Virus record (IMG/VR): IMGVR_UViG_3300030450_000679
Coordinates: 1-26,092 of that record
Direction: 5' to 3' (one strand)
DNA length: 26,092 nt
DNA from: a virus
The position numbers and the translations under genes were made by a program. The notes beneath the pieces are model-generated. The model did not search any database and was not told where the DNA came from. It saw nothing but the letters and a program-made list of their open reading frames with translations. How positions within the stretch are numbered: the first letter of the stretch is position 1; every line of letters starts with the position of its first letter. Positions 2,454 through 18,750 of this stretch are shown piece after piece.

Positions 2454-3224
2454 ATGGCCGTTACATGTTTATCTGGCACATCAGGTGCTCTCTATTACAA
2501 ACCTGCTGGAACTAAAGGAACCTTTGGTACTGGTGATGTCACTATTGGGACAGAAACGATTGTAGTAGAAACCTATTTGAATTTAAAAGTAGGTGATCCC
2601 GTCAAGTTTGAAGTGATAAATTCTCAAACAGGAGGATCAGGCACAGGTACACTCCCTGCTGGTTTATCTGCGGGTACAACTTATTACGTTATTCAATACA
2701 CTGCTGCATCTGGAGCGTTAAAGGTTTCAGCTTCTGCCGGTGGTTCTGCTGTTGACCTTACTGACGTTGGTACTGCTGCATCTCCTAATGAGTTTCAGGT
2801 TTACTATGCTGATTATGAATCAGTTTCTCAAGTCAGAGAGTGGAGTTTTGAAATTGAAAGAGCTGAAATTGATGTAACAACCATTGGTTCTGCTCCTGGT
2901 CAATACGTTCCATTTAGAAACTACATCGCTGGATTTGGTGATGGTTCAGGCTCTGCTACTACTTACATGACTAACGAAGACACAGCGTTATCAAACAGAA
3001 TGATTGAAGACGTTCTTCAGCGTCAGCAAGTTGGTGCTGGATTTAAGCTTTACATTGACCGTGTATTTAGTGGTGGAACATTAAGTGACACATTGAGTCG
3101 TTCAATCAGTTTTGACGCAACATTGACTTCTGCTTCTTTAGGTGTAACTCCTGATGATGCTCAGGCCGTTACTGTTAACTTCCGTCCGGCTGGAGTACCT
3201 TCTTTTGACTTTAGTAAGTCATAG
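2454..3224 (+). CDS. Major tail (tube) protein
   Basis: 256 residues. The first ~35 residues and residues ~125-256 form the tube-type part: VREWSFEIERAEIDVTTIG followed by an aromatic and Gly-rich strand (FRNYIAGFGDGSGSATTYM), and a closing VTVNFRPAGVPSFDFSKS. Residues about 37-112 look like an inserted module of the type seen in several phage structural proteins (LKVGDPVKF, GTLPAGLSAGTTYYV, SGALKVSASAGG). The gene stands alone between an AT-rich gap and a strong terminator, which fits a protein made in high copy. The same REWSF-type motif recurs in the proteins at 11872 and 12292. The major tail protein call rests on fold-like pattern, length and place between tail terminator and chaperone. 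Confidence 0.8.
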   Translation: MAVTCLSGTSGALYYKPAGTKGTFGTGDVTIGTETIVVETYLNLKVGDPVKFEVINSQTGGSGTGTLPAGLSAGTTYYVIQYTAASGALKVSASAGGSAVDLTDVGTAASPNEFQVYYADYESVSQVREWSFEIERAEIDVTTIGSAPGQYVPFRNYIAGFGDGSGSATTYMTNEDTALSNRMIEDVLQRQQVGAGFKLYIDRVFSGGTLSDTLSRSISFDATLTSASLGVTPDDAQAVTVNFRPAGVPSFDFSKS

Positions 3225-3253
3225 AATCGTAACTGGGAAAAAATGTTCAACCG

Positions 3254-3277
3254 ACCCCGTTTTGTACGGGGTTTTTT
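3254..3277 (+). terminator. Intrinsic terminator after the major tail protein
   Basis: ACCCCGT at 3254-3260 pairs perfectly with ACGGGGT at 3266-3272 around a TTTGT loop, and a run of six T follows (3272-3277). This is a textbook rightward terminator, 30 bases after the tail protein stop. Confidence 0.93.
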
Positions 3278-3295
3278 ATTGTTTATTAGGTTAGA

Positions 3296-3320
3296 ATGAT
3301 AATGTATTAATTTTTATCAT
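3296..3320 (+). promoter_or_regulatory. Inverted repeat overlapping the chaperone start codon
   Basis: ATGATAA at 3296-3302 is the exact reverse complement of TTATCAT at 3314-3320, with an 11-base AT-rich spacer. The right arm contains the first two bases of the chaperone ATG (3319). It could be a small operator or a weak hairpin covering the start codon; with one G-C pair the hairpin would be marginal. Chance occurrence in AT-rich DNA is quite possible. Confidence 0.25.
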
Positions 3321-3681
3321 GACATCTAGTCTTAAAACATCTAAATCATTTATGAGGGCAATAGATCGTTTAAAGAAAGCAGCAAATTTAGAAGCTACAA
3401 AAAAAGAAGTTAAACTTTCTGATGGATCTATTTTTGAGATGTGGGTAGCACCATTAACGATGGCAGAAAGAGAAAGGGCACAAAGAGGAGCTAAGTCTGA
3501 TGATGCAAATGAATTTGCTTTAAGACTGTTAATTTCTAAGGCACAAGATGAAGGTGGAACAAGATTATTTAAAGTGGGAGAAATAGATGTTTTAAAGAAT
3601 GAGGTAAAGGATGCTGACTTACAGAAGTTGATGTTGGCTGTGTTAACAGATGATGAGGATGCTTTAGACCCAAAAGACTAA
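3319..3681 (+). CDS. Tail assembly chaperone, unshifted (gpG-like) form
   Basis: 120 residues, ATG start. It begins with a basic helix (SFMRAIDRLKKAA), then a strand pair around VKLSDGSIFEMWVAPLTMAERERA, then alternating acidic and basic helices ending LTDDEDALDPKD. The size, the 'W..PLTMAERE' segment and the place between major tail protein and tape measure gene fit the phage tail assembly chaperones, which coat the tape measure protein before tube assembly. A slippery site sits three codons before the stop and the -1 frame stays open for 62 further codons, so this is the short form of a two-product gene (see the overlapping entry). No Shine-Dalgarno is obvious. Confidence 0.82.
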   Translation: MTSSLKTSKSFMRAIDRLKKAANLEATKKEVKLSDGSIFEMWVAPLTMAERERAQRGAKSDDANEFALRLLISKAQDEGGTRLFKVGEIDVLKNEVKDADLQKLMLAVLTDDEDALDPKD

Positions 3682-3863
3682 GCGAAGAGATAAGAAAAGA
3701 TAATTTATTAATGCTTCAGTTTGGGATAGCGAAGGAGTTAGGGAAGTCTTTATCTGAGATACGGCAAATGACGGTAGAAGAGATTATTGGATGGTCAGCT
3801 TATTTCCAAGTGTTAAACGAAGATCAAGAGAAAGAAATGCAAAAAGCTCGAAGACGTAGGTAA
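3319..3863 (+). CDS. Tail assembly chaperone, -1 frameshifted (gpGT-like) fusion
   Basis: Slipping back one base at 3669-3675 (frame GAC CCA AAA GAC) replaces the stop at 3679 with a frame that runs without interruption to TAA at 3861. The product would be about 181 residues: 119 from the first frame plus 62 new ones starting RLSEEIRKDN. The added part has the look of T-type domains: a helix LLMLQFGIAKELGKSLSEIR, then MTVEEIIGWSAYFQVL, then a highly charged end KARRRR. That region has no start-to-stop gene of its own, which supports its use as an extension. In lambda-type phages the G/GT ratio is fixed by the same -1 slip, and the T part recruits the major tail protein. Sequence evidence is strong; the efficiency of slipping cannot be seen. 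Confidence 0.85.
3655..3675 (+). promoter_or_regulatory. Programmed -1 frameshift site with upstream Shine-Dalgarno-like element
   Basis: The heptamer C CCA AAA at 3669-3675 fits the X XXY YYZ rule in the frame of the chaperone. A GAGG at 3655-3658 lies 10 bases upstream, about the distance at which internal Shine-Dalgarno elements stimulate bacterial -1 slips. I saw no clear stem-loop just downstream. Confidence 0.78.
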
Positions 3864-3888
3864 TATGGAATGAGTTAGGAGGAAAGTT

Positions 3889-6522
3889 GTGGCATCGGCA
3901 CAGGCTCAAATAGAAGTTGTTGTAAAGAATTTAAGATCTTTAGATAAAATTGAAAGAGCCTTAACAAAAATAACTAGTCAAAATGACAAATTAATTGCAA
4001 GCTTAGATAAAGTTGTTGGTTCATTAAGCAATATAGAAAAAGCAGTTGTAGGGGTAGGGAAAGCATCTACAAATTCACAGAAACAATTAGCAGGATCAAC
4101 AACTCAAACAACTAAATTATTAAAAGGACAAGTTAGTAAATGGTATGGAATTAAACAAGCAGTAAATTCAATTCTTGGTGCATTAGGGAATGTTGGGTTA
4201 GCTGCTTTTAACTTCAACAAAGAGATGATGAAGACATGGCAGTTGACCATGAAATTGCAGAAGTTTAAAAAGAATTTATATGTTGATTATTTTGCAGAAT
4301 CAAAAGCACCTTTATCTGAATTAACTAAGATAATTAGTAATTTACAAAAAGAATTAAGTCAATATCATTCTAGTCAAATGAGACTAGTAGGTGGAGATGA
4401 AAAGGCTATTGATGTAAAAAATCAATTAGCAGGTGCATTAAGAGAACAATCTATTGAACAAGCTAGAATTAATAATCTTTTAAGAGAAGCACAAGGTATT
4501 ACTCAACTAGGCCCAGGAGGTAAAGGAAGAGGTTTTGGCAGTCGTTTTGTTAATACTCCAGAAATGGAATCCGCAAAAGCTAGAGATCGAAGTATTAGAC
4601 AAAGAGCTGCTGAAACCAGGCAAGCAAGAATGATTGCGGATGGGCCGTACAAAGACTCTCCTACTGGTTCAGCATGGAGTCCTTCTCTTTCGAGAGAAAG
4701 TCAAAGACTTATCAAATTAGATTCTGAATTTAAAAATCTACCAACTGTAAAAGCAGTTAGACAACTCAAGGCTATCGAACAAAAAAGGTTACTGATACAT
4801 AAGAGAAATCTTAGAGCGAGTGAAAAATTAAATAAAATGGCACAGGCTCAAGGAATGGTTGGCAGCACAGGGTTTACTGCTGCTCAATATGGGCCTCAAC
4901 CTTTGCCATTAACAATGGCAGAACAATTAGGTTTTGGGCAAAAAGGTAGAGCTAATCCTCAAGGAGTATTTGCAAGTAGAGGAGGTATGGGAGGTCGAGT
5001 TAGAGGTGCTGGTAGTAGTGCTTTGATTGGTGGTGCTTTCCCATTCTTATTTGGTCAAGGAGGTGCAAGTGCAGCAGGTGGAGCTTTAGGTGGTGCTGCT
5101 GGTGGCTTTTTAGGAGGAGGATTAGGTTTTGGATTATCTCTTGTTGGTACGGCTATTGGCTCTGCGATAGAAAAGTTTGACAAATTAAATGAAAAAATTG
5201 CTGTTGCCAATGGAAGAATGAAGGCAATGGGTTTTGAGTCGGAATTTACAAGACAAGAAATAGAAAAGATGGCTAAATCATTAAAGATAACTAAAGACGA
5301 AGCTGTTCAAGCTGCGAGTACTTTTGCACGTTTTGGGAAAGAAAGAGCATTAACGTTGGGAGGATTTTTTGGAGCAGACACGGCTGGATTTGATGCTGTC
5401 GCAAAGGTTAGAGATCAAGCAAGTGCTTTAGCTGCTATACAAACACTTTCTAAAGATATAAGTTTTGAAAAACAAAAAGAATTGATTGCTTTAGTAAGAA
5501 CAAATACGGCTGCTCAAATACAAATCAAATTGCAGACAGTTTTATTAGAAGTACAACAACTGAAGAAAATTGAATTAATTAAAGAAATAAGTTTACGAGA
5601 AAAAATACTTAACATAACAAGACGTACTTGGAATGTTATTTCTCAATTTACTACTCCTGGTTTAATGATTGCTGGCGAGACTCCTGGTCAAAGAGTCGAA
5701 AGACAACTTAAGGAGGCAGAAGAACAATTTGCAAAAATGAAAGCATTAATAGATGGTGCAATGGCTGAAATTGGTAGTGTTGATACTAATATTAATCTAA
5801 TTAGCAATTTTGATAAATTACCTGAAGTTATTCGTCAGACAGAAGCTGAACTTATAAAATTAGAAGACCCAATGTTCCAAGTGATTGAAGCTTCAAAAGC
5901 AATTAGTGGAGCATTTAAGGAATCATTTAGAGAAATAATTAGTGGAACAACGAGTGTTCAAGAAGCATTTGCAAGGATGTTCCAACGTATTGCAGATCAT
6001 TTCTTAGACATGGCAGCACAAATGGCTGCCACTCAGTTACAGAAAGGACTATTAAGTATATTTTCTAATTTTGGTAGTCCTTCTGTAGGAACTCAGGTAG
6101 GTAATATGATTGGAACTTTTGGAGAAGGAGGGCATGTCGCAAATGGCATTAAATCTTTCTCTACAGGAGGTTTAGTCACTAGACCTACTATTGGCCTCGT
6201 AGGAGAAGCTGGAGAGGATGAATATATTATTCCTTCCTCTAAGATGCAAGGAGCAATGGAGCGTTACTCAGCAGGTGCCAGAGGTCAAGCAGTCATCCCT
6301 GGTGGTGGAACGGTTGCTTCTGGTAGTGGTGTTAGTAGCGCACCAACAACAGTGAATTACACAGGTCCAGTATTATCGTTTAACTCTGAAGCTTATGTTC
6401 CAAAATCTGCTATTCCTGAAATCATTAACAGTGCTGCAAGACGAGGAGCTGAAGAAGGGCAATCAAAGGTCTTTAGTCAGCTCAAAAACTCTCGTAGTCG
6501 ACGTTCAACGATAGGTTTATGA
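3889..6522 (+). CDS. Tail tape measure protein
   Basis: 877 residues from GTG, with the best Shine-Dalgarno of the window (AGGAGG at 3877-3882, six bases before the start). The N-terminal ~130 residues are predicted coiled coil (IERALTKITSQNDKLIASLDKV...). A Gly/Ala-rich hydrophobic stretch at about residues 372-425 (SSALIGGAFPFLFGQGG onward) is the membrane-active type region common in tape measure proteins. A long helical part follows, and near residues 760-781 there is the classic C-terminal motif GGLVTRPTIGLVGEAGEDEYIIP. The protein sets tail length and is ejected into the host envelope. At ~1.5 angstrom per helical residue, 877 residues would suggest a tail of very roughly 130 nm; this is a rule-of-thumb estimate. 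It follows the chaperone gene and overlaps the next gene by ATGA. Confidence 0.92.
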   Translation: MASAQAQIEVVVKNLRSLDKIERALTKITSQNDKLIASLDKVVGSLSNIEKAVVGVGKASTNSQKQLAGSTTQTTKLLKGQVSKWYGIKQAVNSILGALGNVGLAAFNFNKEMMKTWQLTMKLQKFKKNLYVDYFAESKAPLSELTKIISNLQKELSQYHSSQMRLVGGDEKAIDVKNQLAGALREQSIEQARINNLLREAQGITQLGPGGKGRGFGSRFVNTPEMESAKARDRSIRQRAAETRQARMIADGPYKDSPTGSAWSPSLSRESQRLIKLDSEFKNLPTVKAVRQLKAIEQKRLLIHKRNLRASEKLNKMAQAQGMVGSTGFTAAQYGPQPLPLTMAEQLGFGQKGRANPQGVFASRGGMGGRVRGAGSSALIGGAFPFLFGQGGASAAGGALGGAAGGFLGGGLGFGLSLVGTAIGSAIEKFDKLNEKIAVANGRMKAMGFESEFTRQEIEKMAKSLKITKDEAVQAASTFARFGKERALTLGGFFGADTAGFDAVAKVRDQASALAAIQTLSKDISFEKQKELIALVRTNTAAQIQIKLQTVLLEVQQLKKIELIKEISLREKILNITRRTWNVISQFTTPGLMIAGETPGQRVERQLKEAEEQFAKMKALIDGAMAEIGSVDTNINLISNFDKLPEVIRQTEAELIKLEDPMFQVIEASKAISGAFKESFREIISGTTSVQEAFARMFQRIADHFLDMAAQMAATQLQKGLLSIFSNFGSPSVGTQVGNMIGTFGEGGHVANGIKSFSTGGLVTRPTIGLVGEAGEDEYIIPSSKMQGAMERYSAGARGQAVIPGGGTVASGSGVSSAPTTVNYTGPVLSFNSEAYVPKSAIPEIINSAARRGAEEGQSKVFSQLKNSRSRRSTIGL

Positions 6523-13190: not shown

Positions 13191-15668
13191 GTGGCTGATC
13201 TACAAATTACGCAATTACCAAGTATTGCGTCAGGAAGTGTTGCAGCAACCGATCCAATAGCACTAGCGGATGTTAGTGCGAGTGAAACCAAAAAGGTCAC
13301 TGTTAAAGATTTAATTGCGAGAGGAGTTGCTGTTATTGATGCAGCAACGATTCCTGCTACGGCACTTAGTTATCCATTAACAGCCGGACAAATTGTTACA
13401 GCGACACTTGCTGACAACGCAGTCACAGCAGTAAAAATAACTGATGCAACTATTACTGGTGCGAAGTTAGCTAATGATACGGTCACAGCAACACAGATAG
13501 CTGCAAATGCTATTGGTTCAAGTGAATTAGCAGATAATTCAGTAGATACAGCAGCTATTGTTGATGCGAATATAACGACAGCAAAGCTTGCAGCTAATGC
13601 GGTTACAACAGCAAAGATTACGGACGCTAATGTTACTTATGCGAAGTTAAGTTTAAGTGATGGAGATATACCTGGAGCAAAGATTGCAACGGGTGGGATA
13701 ACAGCGACACAGATAGCAACTAATGCCGTTACTGCGACAGAATTAGCAGACAACGCTGTTGATACAGCAGCACTTGCAGCCAATGTGGTTACTGCTGCAA
13801 AGATTGCTAACGACACAATTACTGCTACACAAATAGCAACAAATGCGATTACCGCCTCTGAGTTAGCTGACAATGCGGTAGACACAGCAGCCATATCAGA
13901 TACAGCAGTAACTACAGCAAAGATTACTGATTTAAATATTACGACAGGGAAATTAGCTGCTGGTGCTGTTACAGACGCAAAGATTACTAATACAACAATT
14001 ACTTATGCGAAATTAAATCTGAGTGATGGTGATATCCCTGGTGCGAAAATTAATTCTGATTCAATTACTGCAACTCAAATAGCTGCTAATGCTATTACAG
14101 CAAGTGAGCTAGCAGATAATGCTGTAGATACTGCTGCTCTTGCTAATGTTTCTGTCACTGGAGCGAAGATAGCGAATGACACAATTACAGCGACACAAGT
14201 AGCTGCCAATGCAATTGGATCATCTGAATTGGCTGATAATGCTGTTGATGCTGGGGCAATAGCAAGTAATGCAGTAGTAACAGCAAAAATATTAGATTCA
14301 AATATAACAACAGCCAAGATCAGTAATTTAGCTGTAACAGCAGCTAAAATTGCTGATAATACTATTACAGCTACTCAAGTTGCAGCCAATGCAATAGGGT
14401 CTAGTGAACTTGCTGATAACGCAGTAGACACGGCGGCTATAGCAGATTCATCTGTCACGGATGCCAAAGTTGCCAGTGGTGTTTCGGGTTTAAAAATAAC
14501 TAATGGAACGATTACAGCAGCGAAGTTAGACACTTCTACTCTTGATCGTTCGTTAAATGTTTCTGGAAATAATTTAGGTATTAATAATGTTGTTTCTGGT
14601 GGAGCATCAGCACGTAATGGAATTACATATAACAACGAAGGCTTAATTACCTCGACTGCTGCCTTGGTTGCAAGTGATATTCCTGAAGCGACTACTACAG
14701 CAGTAGGAGGAGTATCAATTCCTTCAGCAGGGGGATTGTCTGTAACAGCTTTAGGTGCGTTGTCAATTACTAATGCAGTCACAGCAGGGACAACATCAGG
14801 GATAACCTTTAATGCTCATGGACAAATCACAGGAACAGTGGCTTTGGCTGGTGGAGACTTACCAATTGCAACGACGAGTGTTATAGGAGGAATCAAGGTG
14901 CCAACAGCTTCGGCACCTGTAACAGTTGATGGGAATGGGGTTTTATCTCTTGCCGATAGTGGAGTATCTAGTGGAACTTATGGCAAAGTTACTGTTTCAA
15001 GCAAAGGAATAGTTACAGCGGGAACGAATCTTGCTGTTTCTGATCTTCCAGGTTTACCTGCTTCAAAGATTACTAGTGGCACCTTTGGAAGTGCTTATAT
15101 TTCTGACAATGCAGTCACAATGGACAAGATCGACAGTAATGCGATCTCGTTTATTCAAGAAGCACAACCTGATATAACCAATCTTCCTACAGGTGTCTAT
15201 TGGTTACAAGAATCATCGGGGCAGCTACGAATATTCAATGGAAATAGCTGGTTCGCAGTTGGATTTGGACGATTAGCAGAAGAAAATCTCAGGTACGTTG
15301 GTACTTTCAATGGCACAAACGGTGTTATTGGAACGTTAACGACATTTGGTACGTCGGCAGGTTTAACAGCAGGAGTGGCATTGCCTGCTGGAACTGCTGC
15401 CTTGACTGGATGTTATGCAGTATGTACTACGGCGGGTAATGGGGTAGGAGTTGTAAGTGGCGTAAGTTTCACAGTAGGAGATTGGGCCATGTGTAATGGT
15501 CTTGTGGGATGGGTAAGGGTTGATATTAATGCTGGCGATGCTCCAACTATTGGATTAGATGGATTGAATGATGTGACTATTTCAAGTGCAGTTGCAGGAC
15601 AATTTTTAGAGTTACAAACAGGGGGAACTTGGAATAATGTCTCTGAAATTTCCGGTGGAACTTATTGA
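13191..15668 (+). CDS. Repeat-rich tail fibre protein
   Basis: 825 residues from GTG (GAGG at 13182-13185 gives a suitable ribosome site). The N-terminus MADLQITQLPSIASGSVAA...DLIARGV is a common phage fibre-attachment opening. Residues ~70-440 are an imperfect array with six copies of an ELADN(A/S)VD unit, alternating with ITATQIA.NAI and VT.AKI.D units, and two copies of a YAKL.LSDGDIPGAKI linker. This suggests a long trimeric shaft. From ~445 a Gly/Ala/Ser-rich beta region follows. The end contains WLQESSGQLRIFNGNSWF and an RYVGTFNGTNGVIG...VGDWAMCNGLVGWVRVD module seen in many phage fibres. Likely a side tail fibre. Long open frames on the opposite strand here are by-products of the repeats. 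Confidence 0.82.
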   Translation: MADLQITQLPSIASGSVAATDPIALADVSASETKKVTVKDLIARGVAVIDAATIPATALSYPLTAGQIVTATLADNAVTAVKITDATITGAKLANDTVTATQIAANAIGSSELADNSVDTAAIVDANITTAKLAANAVTTAKITDANVTYAKLSLSDGDIPGAKIATGGITATQIATNAVTATELADNAVDTAALAANVVTAAKIANDTITATQIATNAITASELADNAVDTAAISDTAVTTAKITDLNITTGKLAAGAVTDAKITNTTITYAKLNLSDGDIPGAKINSDSITATQIAANAITASELADNAVDTAALANVSVTGAKIANDTITATQVAANAIGSSELADNAVDAGAIASNAVVTAKILDSNITTAKISNLAVTAAKIADNTITATQVAANAIGSSELADNAVDTAAIADSSVTDAKVASGVSGLKITNGTITAAKLDTSTLDRSLNVSGNNLGINNVVSGGASARNGITYNNEGLITSTAALVASDIPEATTTAVGGVSIPSAGGLSVTALGALSITNAVTAGTTSGITFNAHGQITGTVALAGGDLPIATTSVIGGIKVPTASAPVTVDGNGVLSLADSGVSSGTYGKVTVSSKGIVTAGTNLAVSDLPGLPASKITSGTFGSAYISDNAVTMDKIDSNAISFIQEAQPDITNLPTGVYWLQESSGQLRIFNGNSWFAVGFGRLAEENLRYVGTFNGTNGVIGTLTTFGTSAGLTAGVALPAGTAALTGCYAVCTTAGNGVGVVSGVSFTVGDWAMCNGLVGWVRVDINAGDAPTIGLDGLNDVTISSAVAGQFLELQTGGTWNNVSEISGGTY
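13395..14535 (+). repeat. Array of coding repeats in the tail fibre
   Basis: The encoded units (ELADNAVDTAAI, ITATQIAANAI, VTTAKITD) recur about every 20-60 residues, and the SDGDIPGAKI linker occurs at about 13655-13690 and 14020-14055. The DNA of the copies differs at many third codon positions, so they are old or selected to diverge, not a recent expansion. Confidence 0.75.
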
Positions 15669-15750: not shown

Positions 15751-18750
15751 ATGGCTATTAAGATCACGCTGAAAAACAGCGTCGTACAGGATTCTGTTCC
15801 TACTACAACTCATTTGCCGACGGTAGGAGAACTAGCGGTTAATGCAAATATAAATAGTATTGGTGGCTATATGAGAGCCAGTGATAACAGCATTGTAAAG
15901 ATATTTGGGCCTGGATCTCTTTCGACTCCGGCAGCGACAACAACAACAGCAGGTATTGCAGAATTAGCAACTTCTGGTGAAACCACGGCAGGAACAGATG
16001 CGGCAAGAGTTTGTACTCCTGCAGGTGTTAAGGCTGTTACTGACGCAGAACGAACCACATCAAATAGCACATATTTAGCTAAGGCTGGTGGAACGTTAAC
16101 TGGAGTTTTAGCTGCGACTGCTGGAAGCAATTCAGCCGCATCTATTCACTTTGGCGATACAGATTCAGGAATCTATGGTGGTACAAATACAGTTTCTTTA
16201 ACTGCTGGTGGTACTCAGGGCTTAACTCTTAATAGTGATGGGTATGTGAATGTTCCTACAAGATTAGGTGTAGGAGTCGCAAGTCCTGCGGTAGCTTTTC
16301 ATATCAATTCTGGGGCGACAAATGAATGTGCGAGATTTGAAAGTAGTGATACGGAAGTTACTCTTGAATTCAAAGATACAACTGGTACGGCGACTTTAAA
16401 AAGTAGAGATGATTTCAGATTCGGGAATAGTACAGGTGAATTAGCTAGGGTAGACGCTTCAGGTCGATTACTTGTTGGTCTTACTTCTGCAAGAACTTTA
16501 AATCCTAGTCATATTCCTCCTTTTCAAATTGAAGGTAATACTGCTACAACTTCATCTATTTCAACGATAAATAATATAAACCAAACAGGTGGTCCTTCTG
16601 TCTGGCTTGGCAAGAGTAGAGGAGCTGCTTTAGGAGGGGTTGTAACTGTTCAATCTGGAGATGAGTTAGGTTCTATTTTCTTTAATGGTGCTGATGGAAC
16701 AGATATTGCAAGCATTGGTGCGTCAATTGTTGCCAAATCGAATGGAACAGTTGCAGGTAATAGAATGCCTGGTGAATTGGTGTTTGCTACAACAGCAGAT
16801 TCAGCAGGTTCAGTTACACCTACAACACGACTAACAATTGATAATGCAGGAAAAGTAATAATCGGAACTGGAGATGACATCCAACTCTGGCATGATGGAT
16901 CAACGTCTCCAGCTACGTCAATAATAAAAAATAATACTGATAATCTTCATATAAGAAGTGGTGGTAATATTACTCTTCAAAATAAAGCTGCTACTGAAAC
17001 ATTTGCTAATTTCGCAGATGGGGGAGCTGTAGACCTTTATTTTGATAATGGCCTTAAGCTTTCCACACTAAGCACTGGTGTAAGTATAACGGGGAGCTTA
17101 GGTATAGGAACAACTACTACTAATGCATCAGATAGCTTCACTATTGTAGATCCAGGGAATGCCTTCATGTCTCTGAGATCAGATGCAGAAGCGGATGGAA
17201 ATTCTCAAGTATTTGATTTTGCTGTTGGAACAGGTGATAGAGCAAGTACTAATGTAGTATCTTCAATTACATCTGCAATTCCTTCAGGATCTGCTGCTGG
17301 AGGTACTTTAAAAGGTTATTTAGCGTTTTTTACAAATGCTGGAGATAATTTACAGGAGAGGCTACGTATTACTTCTGCTGGAGAAAGCATATTTTATGGA
17401 AGCGTCGAGTTAGGAGATTCTAAAGAGTTAAGACTAGGTGCTAGTCAAGATCTGAAGCTTGTGCATGACGGAAATAATAGCTACATCAACCATAATGGAA
17501 CTGGTGACTTTTGGATTCAAGCTCAAGGAGCCGATGAGAACCTTTGGTTAAGAGCTAAAGATGATGTATACATACAAACTAATGACAGTGAGAACGCAGC
17601 TAAATTTATAAAAAATGGAAAGGTAGAGTTATTTTACGATGGATCTTCCAGATTAGAAACTAATAGCGAAGGGGTGAAAATTGATGGTGTTCTAGAGATG
17701 TTAGACAATAAACGTATTCAATTAGGTACAAGTGATGATCTTCAGTTGTACTCAGATGGGTCTGATAGTTACGTATTAAATACAACTGATACTGACCTTA
17801 TTATTAGGAATACTGGTAATGCTGGTATTGAAATTGCCAATCAAAATAGTTTTCCAATAGAGTTAAAAACAAATGCAGAGACAGCAATAAAGTGTAACGC
17901 AAATGGATCTGTAGATCTATATCATGATAATTCTCCGCGTCTTATCACTACGGCCGGAGGAGTAACTATTACAGGCTACGATGCCAATGACGGTACGATT
18001 ATCAAAGGAGATCTTAGGTTAAGTAAACAGGGAGAAACGGCTACAAGAATAAAATGGGATGGTTCCGACGGTACTGTTGGACAGTTAGAGCTTTTTGATG
18101 ATGTAAAACTTACGTTCGGTGCCGACTCAGATTTAGAAATTTCACATGATGGAACAAATAATAGTATTAAATCCACTACTGGTCACGTAAATTTATACTT
18201 GCCTACTGGTAAAGCATTCTCAGTAGGTAATTCAGATTTCACCGAGGATATATTTAGAGCTACAGAAGGGGGATCCGTACAGCTCTATCACGACAATTCA
18301 GAAAAGTTACTTACGGACGCCAATGGAATACAGGTAAAAGATCGAATAACTTTTGGCGTATCTAATAACACTGTTGTATTGGACTTTCAAATAGCCAGTA
18401 CACAAAGGGGTTATATTAATGTCCTAGAAACTGGTACAACTTACAGTACAAGTTCTGATTATCGTCTAAAAGAAAATGAAGTATCTATAACTGATGGAAT
18501 TGCGAGACTGAAGACATTAAAGCCTTATAGATTTAACTTCAAAGATATACCATCCAAGATTGTCGATGGATTCTTCGCACATGAGGTAACACCAGTAGTT
18601 CCAGAAGCGGTAAGTGGAGAGAAAGATGGAGAGCAAATGCAAGGCATGGACTATGGACGTATTACACCTTTGTTAACTGCTGCATTACAGGAAGCTATAG
18701 GGAAAATAGAGATTTTAGAATCAAAAGTAGCAGCATTGGAGGGTACGTAA
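15751..18750 (+). CDS. Tail fibre with C-terminal S74 intramolecular chaperone domain
   Basis: 999 residues. Residues 1-55 are an attachment-type N-terminus with VGELAVNANINSIGGYMRASDNS. Residues ~57-96 match the phage tail fibre repeat (TTTTAGIAELAT..ETTAGTDAARVCTPAGVKAV), and FGDTDSGIYGG follows at ~134. The body has repeated units of the type DL.L.HDG.NSYI... followed by G.V.LYHDNS.RL.T...GV.I, at least four times. The C-terminus from residue 902 is a peptidase S74 domain: SDYRLKEN with the Ser902/Lys907 pair (TCT at 18454, AAA at 18469), LKPYRFNF, GFFAHEV, and a final coiled coil IGKIEILESKVAALE. Such domains trimerise the fibre, then cut themselves off just before the Ser. Likely a receptor-binding fibre. 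Confidence 0.88.
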   Translation: MAIKITLKNSVVQDSVPTTTHLPTVGELAVNANINSIGGYMRASDNSIVKIFGPGSLSTPAATTTTAGIAELATSGETTAGTDAARVCTPAGVKAVTDAERTTSNSTYLAKAGGTLTGVLAATAGSNSAASIHFGDTDSGIYGGTNTVSLTAGGTQGLTLNSDGYVNVPTRLGVGVASPAVAFHINSGATNECARFESSDTEVTLEFKDTTGTATLKSRDDFRFGNSTGELARVDASGRLLVGLTSARTLNPSHIPPFQIEGNTATTSSISTINNINQTGGPSVWLGKSRGAALGGVVTVQSGDELGSIFFNGADGTDIASIGASIVAKSNGTVAGNRMPGELVFATTADSAGSVTPTTRLTIDNAGKVIIGTGDDIQLWHDGSTSPATSIIKNNTDNLHIRSGGNITLQNKAATETFANFADGGAVDLYFDNGLKLSTLSTGVSITGSLGIGTTTTNASDSFTIVDPGNAFMSLRSDAEADGNSQVFDFAVGTGDRASTNVVSSITSAIPSGSAAGGTLKGYLAFFTNAGDNLQERLRITSAGESIFYGSVELGDSKELRLGASQDLKLVHDGNNSYINHNGTGDFWIQAQGADENLWLRAKDDVYIQTNDSENAAKFIKNGKVELFYDGSSRLETNSEGVKIDGVLEMLDNKRIQLGTSDDLQLYSDGSDSYVLNTTDTDLIIRNTGNAGIEIANQNSFPIELKTNAETAIKCNANGSVDLYHDNSPRLITTAGGVTITGYDANDGTIIKGDLRLSKQGETATRIKWDGSDGTVGQLELFDDVKLTFGADSDLEISHDGTNNSIKSTTGHVNLYLPTGKAFSVGNSDFTEDIFRATEGGSVQLYHDNSEKLLTDANGIQVKDRITFGVSNNTVVLDFQIASTQRGYINVLETGTTYSTSSDYRLKENEVSITDGIARLKTLKPYRFNFKDIPSKIVDGFFAHEVTPVVPEAVSGEKDGEQMQGMDYGRITPLLTAALQEAIGKIEILESKVAALEGT

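Follow-up and report, generated by a model that had tools for sequence, protein, structure and literature searches.

A lambda-type G/GT tail assembly chaperone pair, probably produced by programmed −1 ribosomal frameshifting on C_CCA_AAA, in a marine phage some of whose relatives use other slip sites

The frameshifted tail assembly helper has long been known from phage lambda, in which genes G and T precede the tape measure gene, overlap over a short distance, and give rise to gpG and gpGT by a −1 tandem slip on a heptamer of the X_XXA_AAR type, namely G_GGA_AAG. In lambda, the GT protein joins the tape measure to the major tail protein, and the proportion of G to GT is important (PMC5009743). 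The locus analyzed here, which belongs to a marine phage and lies in a 26,092-nucleotide stretch of DNA (referred to as the window), shares with lambda this gene order, the short overlap, and the type of −1 site, and its T domain falls into the same PHROG (337) as lambda gpT. On the other hand, its slip site is C_CCA_AAA in place of that of lambda, its T part is shorter (62 residues versus 144 codons annotated for lambda T), and its G belongs to PHROG 20784/344, whereas lambda G belongs to PHROG 42. The HK97 tail assembly chaperone (2OB9) is the top PDB match of the predicted G fold (E 6e-4, probability 1.0) but, with 17% identity and a TM-score of 0.46-0.5, it is a distant relative.

Two cyanophage isolates carry comparable pairs. 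In KBS-S-2A, G (AGH57689.1) and T display 60 and 54% identity to those of the window, gene order is the same, and T is also in the −1 frame, but the slip site is A_AAA_AAC and is followed 7 nt downstream by a covarying hairpin. In S-2L, the "putative tail assembly chaperone" (QQG31339.1) shows C_CCA_AAG at the equivalent junction, and T again lies in the −1 frame. However, its G is only 43% identical, its genome is GC-rich, and its 0-frame stop lies far downstream, compared with ten nt in the window and a slip-to-stop distance of at most 52 nt in all CCCAAAN loci. The T part is unannotated in both genomes (2842-3018 in KBS-S-2A and 2839-3009 in S-2L). The features of the window that bear on this comparison are as follows.

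2454-3224, + strand: probable major tail protein gene, so named from its position only, with no family match
3253-3281, + strand: intrinsic-terminator-like hairpin (ACCCCGT-TTTGT-ACGGGGT) with a run of T after it, in the gap separating G from the probable major tail protein gene
3319-3681, + strand: G, tail assembly chaperone, 0-frame product of 120 aa (open reading frame, phrog_20784, phrog_344, predicted fold)
3654-3656, + strand: TGA in the −1 frame, upstream bound of the slip region
3655-3658, + strand: GAGG, Shine-Dalgarno (SD)-like, ten nt 5' of the slip site, probable stimulator
3669-3675, + strand: slippery heptamer C_CCA_AAA, read as CCC AAA A after a −1 slip (kept in near loci; junction codon choice)
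3675-3863, + strand: unannotated −1-frame T domain of 62 codons closed by TAA, predicted to be present only in the GT fusion
3889-6522, + strand: tape measure protein gene with a GTG start (phrog_12798, tail length tape measure protein, 6e-6)

The G gene ends with the codons GAC CCA AAA GAC TAA (stop at 3679-3681), which gives the C terminus ...DALDPKD*. Because the TGA at 3654-3656 closes the −1 frame upstream, a slip into T is confined to the overlap 3657-3681, and past this TGA the −1 frame is open as far as the TAA at 3861-3863. The sole in-frame X_XXY_YYZ within the overlap is C_CCA_AAA at 3669-3675, in the correct register, and the post-slip reading would be CCC AAA AGA CTA AGC, i.e. ..DPK-RLSEE.., continuing for 62 codons to ...KARRRR*. 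C_CCA_AAR occurs once in 6,547 in-frame codon positions of + strand genes, exactly at this junction, and CCCAAA[A/G] has a single copy on the + strand of the whole 26-kb window. The first-pass annotation had described 3682-3888 as a region without a gene, together with this heptamer, the 62-codon frame that it opens, and a GAGG ten bases upstream. Each of these is found in the sequence, and no open reading frame of at least 60 aa is listed in that region.

Two scans with the G and T of the window retrieved 133 near IMG/VR loci (window included) in which both parts are present. The heptamer is CCCAAAA (86) or CCCAAAG (47), T occupies the −1 frame, and exactly ten nt separate the first C from the 0-frame stop TAA in 133/133 of these loci, which are not independent samples since they, like the more distant ones below, were found by similarity to the G/T of the window or to relatives of its G. 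Neither the heptamer nor the −1 frame has thus been lost in any near relative. In many of them, the −1 stop adjoins the slip site (TGACCCAAAATCCTAA), so that a slip has 16 nt in which to occur. Three added scans from distant G sequences led to a wider set of 366 loci with both parts, 318 of which are distinct (217 with T in the −1 frame and 101 with T in the +1 frame). As codon conservation measured on loci chosen for CCCAAA is circular, we replaced it by a junction defined by its residues. In the 167 −1 loci with P-K/N at this junction, the Asp before Pro is coded by GAC in 166/166 and the Pro codon is CCA in 163/167, compared with 22% GAC and 39% CCA in the remainder of G.

CCCAAAA and CCCAAAG are not named as G-T sites of phage tail genes in the literature that we searched (open library); slip sites of this kind are reportedly listed by Xu et al. 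2004. In Escherichia coli, C_CC.A_AA.G is the most efficient of 64 heptamers, reaching 54% with the IS3 pseudoknot, and both C_CC.A_AA.A and C_CC.A_AA.G promote more than 0.1% shift without any stimulator (PMC4066793). These heptamers are identical to those of the clade of the window, tested with IS3 and IS911 stimulators in a context and host that differ from those of its phage (PMC4066793). By this measure, the slip site of the window is strong rather than exotic, so that its initial description as an unusual proline/lysine variant has to be revised: few sites promote slipping in E. coli as efficiently as CCCAAAR.

The conservation of the upstream GAGG is less complete than that of the heptamer. 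Indeed, GAGG was found 8-14 nt upstream in only 103/156 distinct CCCAAAN loci and was missing from about one-third. This leaves room for frameshifting to occur as proposed with GAGG playing no role, the SD-like sequences being a by-product of acidic codons, as the region encodes D/E runs, and of shared descent. To this can be opposed a comparison with 300 simulations in which codons were redrawn synonymously and amino acids kept. SD-like cores 8-14 nt upstream are present in 25/38 CCCAAAN representatives versus 15.2 expected, and in 15/19 representatives of the clade of the window versus 7.4 expected, with 0/300 simulations as high in either case, although this null assumes independent sequences and, the representatives being related, overstates significance. 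Moreover, the excess is clear only 5-14 nt upstream, with no clear enrichment at control distances. Considering that GAGG is more frequent than codon usage predicts though not invariant, it is likely to be a stimulatory element, and we regard its having no role as possible but somewhat doubtful.

Downstream of the slip site, sliding-window z-scores, RNAalifold, and pair counting revealed no conserved 3' hairpin in the clade of the window. Its consensus energy is −0.37 kcal/mol (19 representatives) and the folding z of the window itself is about −1.1, in keeping with the earlier impression that there is no clear stem-loop. In contrast, KBS-S-2A-like loci with AAAAAAC/A have a hairpin starting 7 nt past the slip site, in which 88.8% of cells are paired (33-55% in slid controls and 36% for the same columns in the clade of the window) and which shows 14 double changes versus a shuffled mean of 6.5 (0/500). 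Mean downstream folding z is −2.45 for AAAAAAN/GGGAAAG loci versus −0.77 for CCCAAAN loci (Mann-Whitney, 6e-5), and the difference is also seen relative to the CCCAAAA loci of the same clade (Mann-Whitney, 0.001). Since A_AA.A_AA.C supports slipping with low efficiency in E. coli (PMC4066793), a coherent reading of this comparison is that the strong CCCAAAR would need no hairpin, whereas the weak AAAAAAC would have acquired one.

Next, we consider how T could be translated otherwise. In 147 relatives, the T frame is stop-free in its first 30 codons whereas both other frames are full of stops, and substitutions by T-codon position are 419:225:737 in the first 12 T codons, upstream of the internal ATG. 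This pattern indicates that selection at the protein level acts on T codons starting at the slip, ahead of any start codon. T might instead be a separate gene, translated by re-initiation or from an internal start (e.g. ATG 3711) after the G stop, considering that its frame begins beside this stop and that many near relatives have an ATG 30 nt further on. However, codons 5' of this ATG are already under T-frame selection; the ATG is absent in relatives such as L110 and L134 and, in the first conserved stretch, in 30/217 −1 loci and 76/101 +1 loci; and 202/211 −1 loci have no ATG, GTG, or TTG in the T frame near the junction. Selection ahead of the ATG and the missing start codons count against re-initiation, which also has no need of a conserved GAC-CCA, and we consider it very unlikely. 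It is even harder to credit that GT results from transcriptional rather than ribosomal slippage. The slip site does contain a short A run, but runs of four (window) or three (CCCAAAG relatives) are too short for polymerase slippage, whereas the C triplet and the codon register, needed only for tandem tRNA slippage, are kept. Equally implausible is a frame break reflecting a decayed remnant or a sequencing error, a reading that no observation favored, as 147 near relatives have zero T stop codons and T is in frame with G in 0/366 loci, from independent samples and isolate genomes, which rules out a one-frame gene with a sequencing error.

The frameshifting proposed for the window concerns two proteins whose families are recognizable. 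G matches phrog_20784 (2e-31) and phrog_344 "tail assembly chaperone" (3e-4), the latter also matched by 6/7 relatives, and the fold behind the 2OB9 match was predicted with a pLDDT of 76. T alone has a predicted fold with a pLDDT of 94, similar to a portion of the tail assembly chaperone of a Rhodobacter phage. The T of the window matches phrog_337 only weakly (2e-3), but 7/10 family members match (best 1.8e-7), compared with 4.7e-7 for lambda T, so that kinship with lambda gpT, carried by the matches of relatives, is weak but concordant. Pfam returned no family at threshold, with nothing for the G and T of the window and one weak Phage_TAC_13 match for relatives. A PDB sequence search gave nothing useful, an Rfam search no RNA family, and a G profile search of GTDB genome contigs no relative.

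The pair lies between the tape measure gene, assigned by PHROG, and the probable major tail protein gene, assigned by position and by named relatives: gene order is as in MED4-184 and S-2L, whose equivalent of 2454-3224 is an annotated major tail protein. The strong terminator-like hairpin ahead of G is found in the same place in 26/110 representatives versus 0/114 control stretches, with both stem sides changed yet still matching in relatives. It may make transcripts of G, T, and the tape measure gene scarcer than those of the major tail protein. Farther downstream, 13191-15668 is an 825-aa open reading frame, probably that of a tail fibre, in which imperfect repeats of the ITATQIAANAIGSSELADNAVDTAAI type recur many times, and 15751-18750 is a 999-aa open reading frame ending with RLKENEVSI..., which by eye resembles the C-terminal intramolecular chaperone of tail fibres.

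Taken together, the conserved site and frame, the selection on T, the fold match of G, and the PHROG 337 common with lambda gpT strongly suggest that the window encodes a lambda-type G/GT tail assembly chaperone pair produced by programmed −1 ribosomal frameshifting (probability about 0.94), in support of the G-T reading first proposed from the sequence. The majority of ribosomes would read G through to the TAA ending at 3681. In some ribosomes, prolyl-tRNA on CCA and lysyl-tRNA on AAA would move back in tandem to CCC and AAA (3669-3675), and translation would continue for 62 codons to give GT. Slipping probably depends on the intrinsically strong heptamer, with help from the SD-like GAGG upstream of it, rather than on a 3' hairpin. 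By analogy with lambda, the tape measure protein would be coated jointly by G and GT, with the T part recruiting the major tail protein and the slip rate fixing the GT:G ratio.

In the wider set, an in-frame X_XXY_YYZ is found inside the overlap in 211/217 distinct −1 loci. Their slip sites are CCCAAAA/G/C (156), AAAAAAC/A/G (49), GGGAAAG (6), CCCCAAG (4), and CGCAAAG (2), whereas the 101 +1 loci have AAAAGC (98), AAAAGT (2), or AAAAGA (1). In four distinct loci (L267, L278, L284, and L287), GAC CCC AAG replaces GAC CCA AAR. A −1 slip on this sequence would keep the Pro pairing (CCC to CCC) and place lysyl-tRNA on CAA, which makes P-site slippage before A-site decoding possible. MED4-117 and MED4-184 have T in the −1 frame and an overlap, TAACGCAAAGGAATCCTAA, without X_XXY_YYZ, containing only the A_AAG-like CGCAAAG. 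In +1 loci such as MH327491 (AG-345-A17; about 2838-2848), the overlap is often only xTA/xTG AAA AGC TAA, and many have, upstream, AAGGAGGT (at about 23 nt), GAGG (at 14 nt), and GGC-TAAA-GCC.

The AAAAAAC/A relatives with a covarying hairpin and the +1 relatives indicate that slip site, stimulator, and direction all change within the family. The +1 loci are scattered over several places in the tree, parsimony requires at least four frame changes, and some +1 loci share 76-78% identity in G and T with −1 loci, compared with only 36-40% with the main +1 group. At least one reversal of slip direction is certain. Repeated reversal is likely, although, in an AU test, a single +1 clade remained acceptable (p 0.13), so that repeated origin of +1 loci, or reversal, is not established by this test. 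On balance, we lean slightly toward the view that the family always frameshifts and has repeatedly swapped the means of doing so, i.e. a −1 slip on the strong CCCAAAR, accompanied by an SD-like element but not by a hairpin, a −1 slip on the weaker AAAAAAC, accompanied by a covarying 3' hairpin, or a +1 slip on AAAAGC, and that slip direction was reversed at least twice in phages that still share 75-78% identity in G and T.

The phage of the window thus appears to add a member to the known class of lambda-type G/GT pairs, and several hundred relatives would likewise make a longer second version of the chaperone. The analysis supplies the missing T gene part in a large, mostly unannotated cyanophage-related group, including isolates such as KBS-S-2A. 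Its most useful result is the swapping of sites, stimulators, and direction, which makes the family a natural experiment on slipping by bacterial ribosomes, in which a strong site without a hairpin can be compared with a weak site with one, and −1 with +1, in otherwise matching genes.
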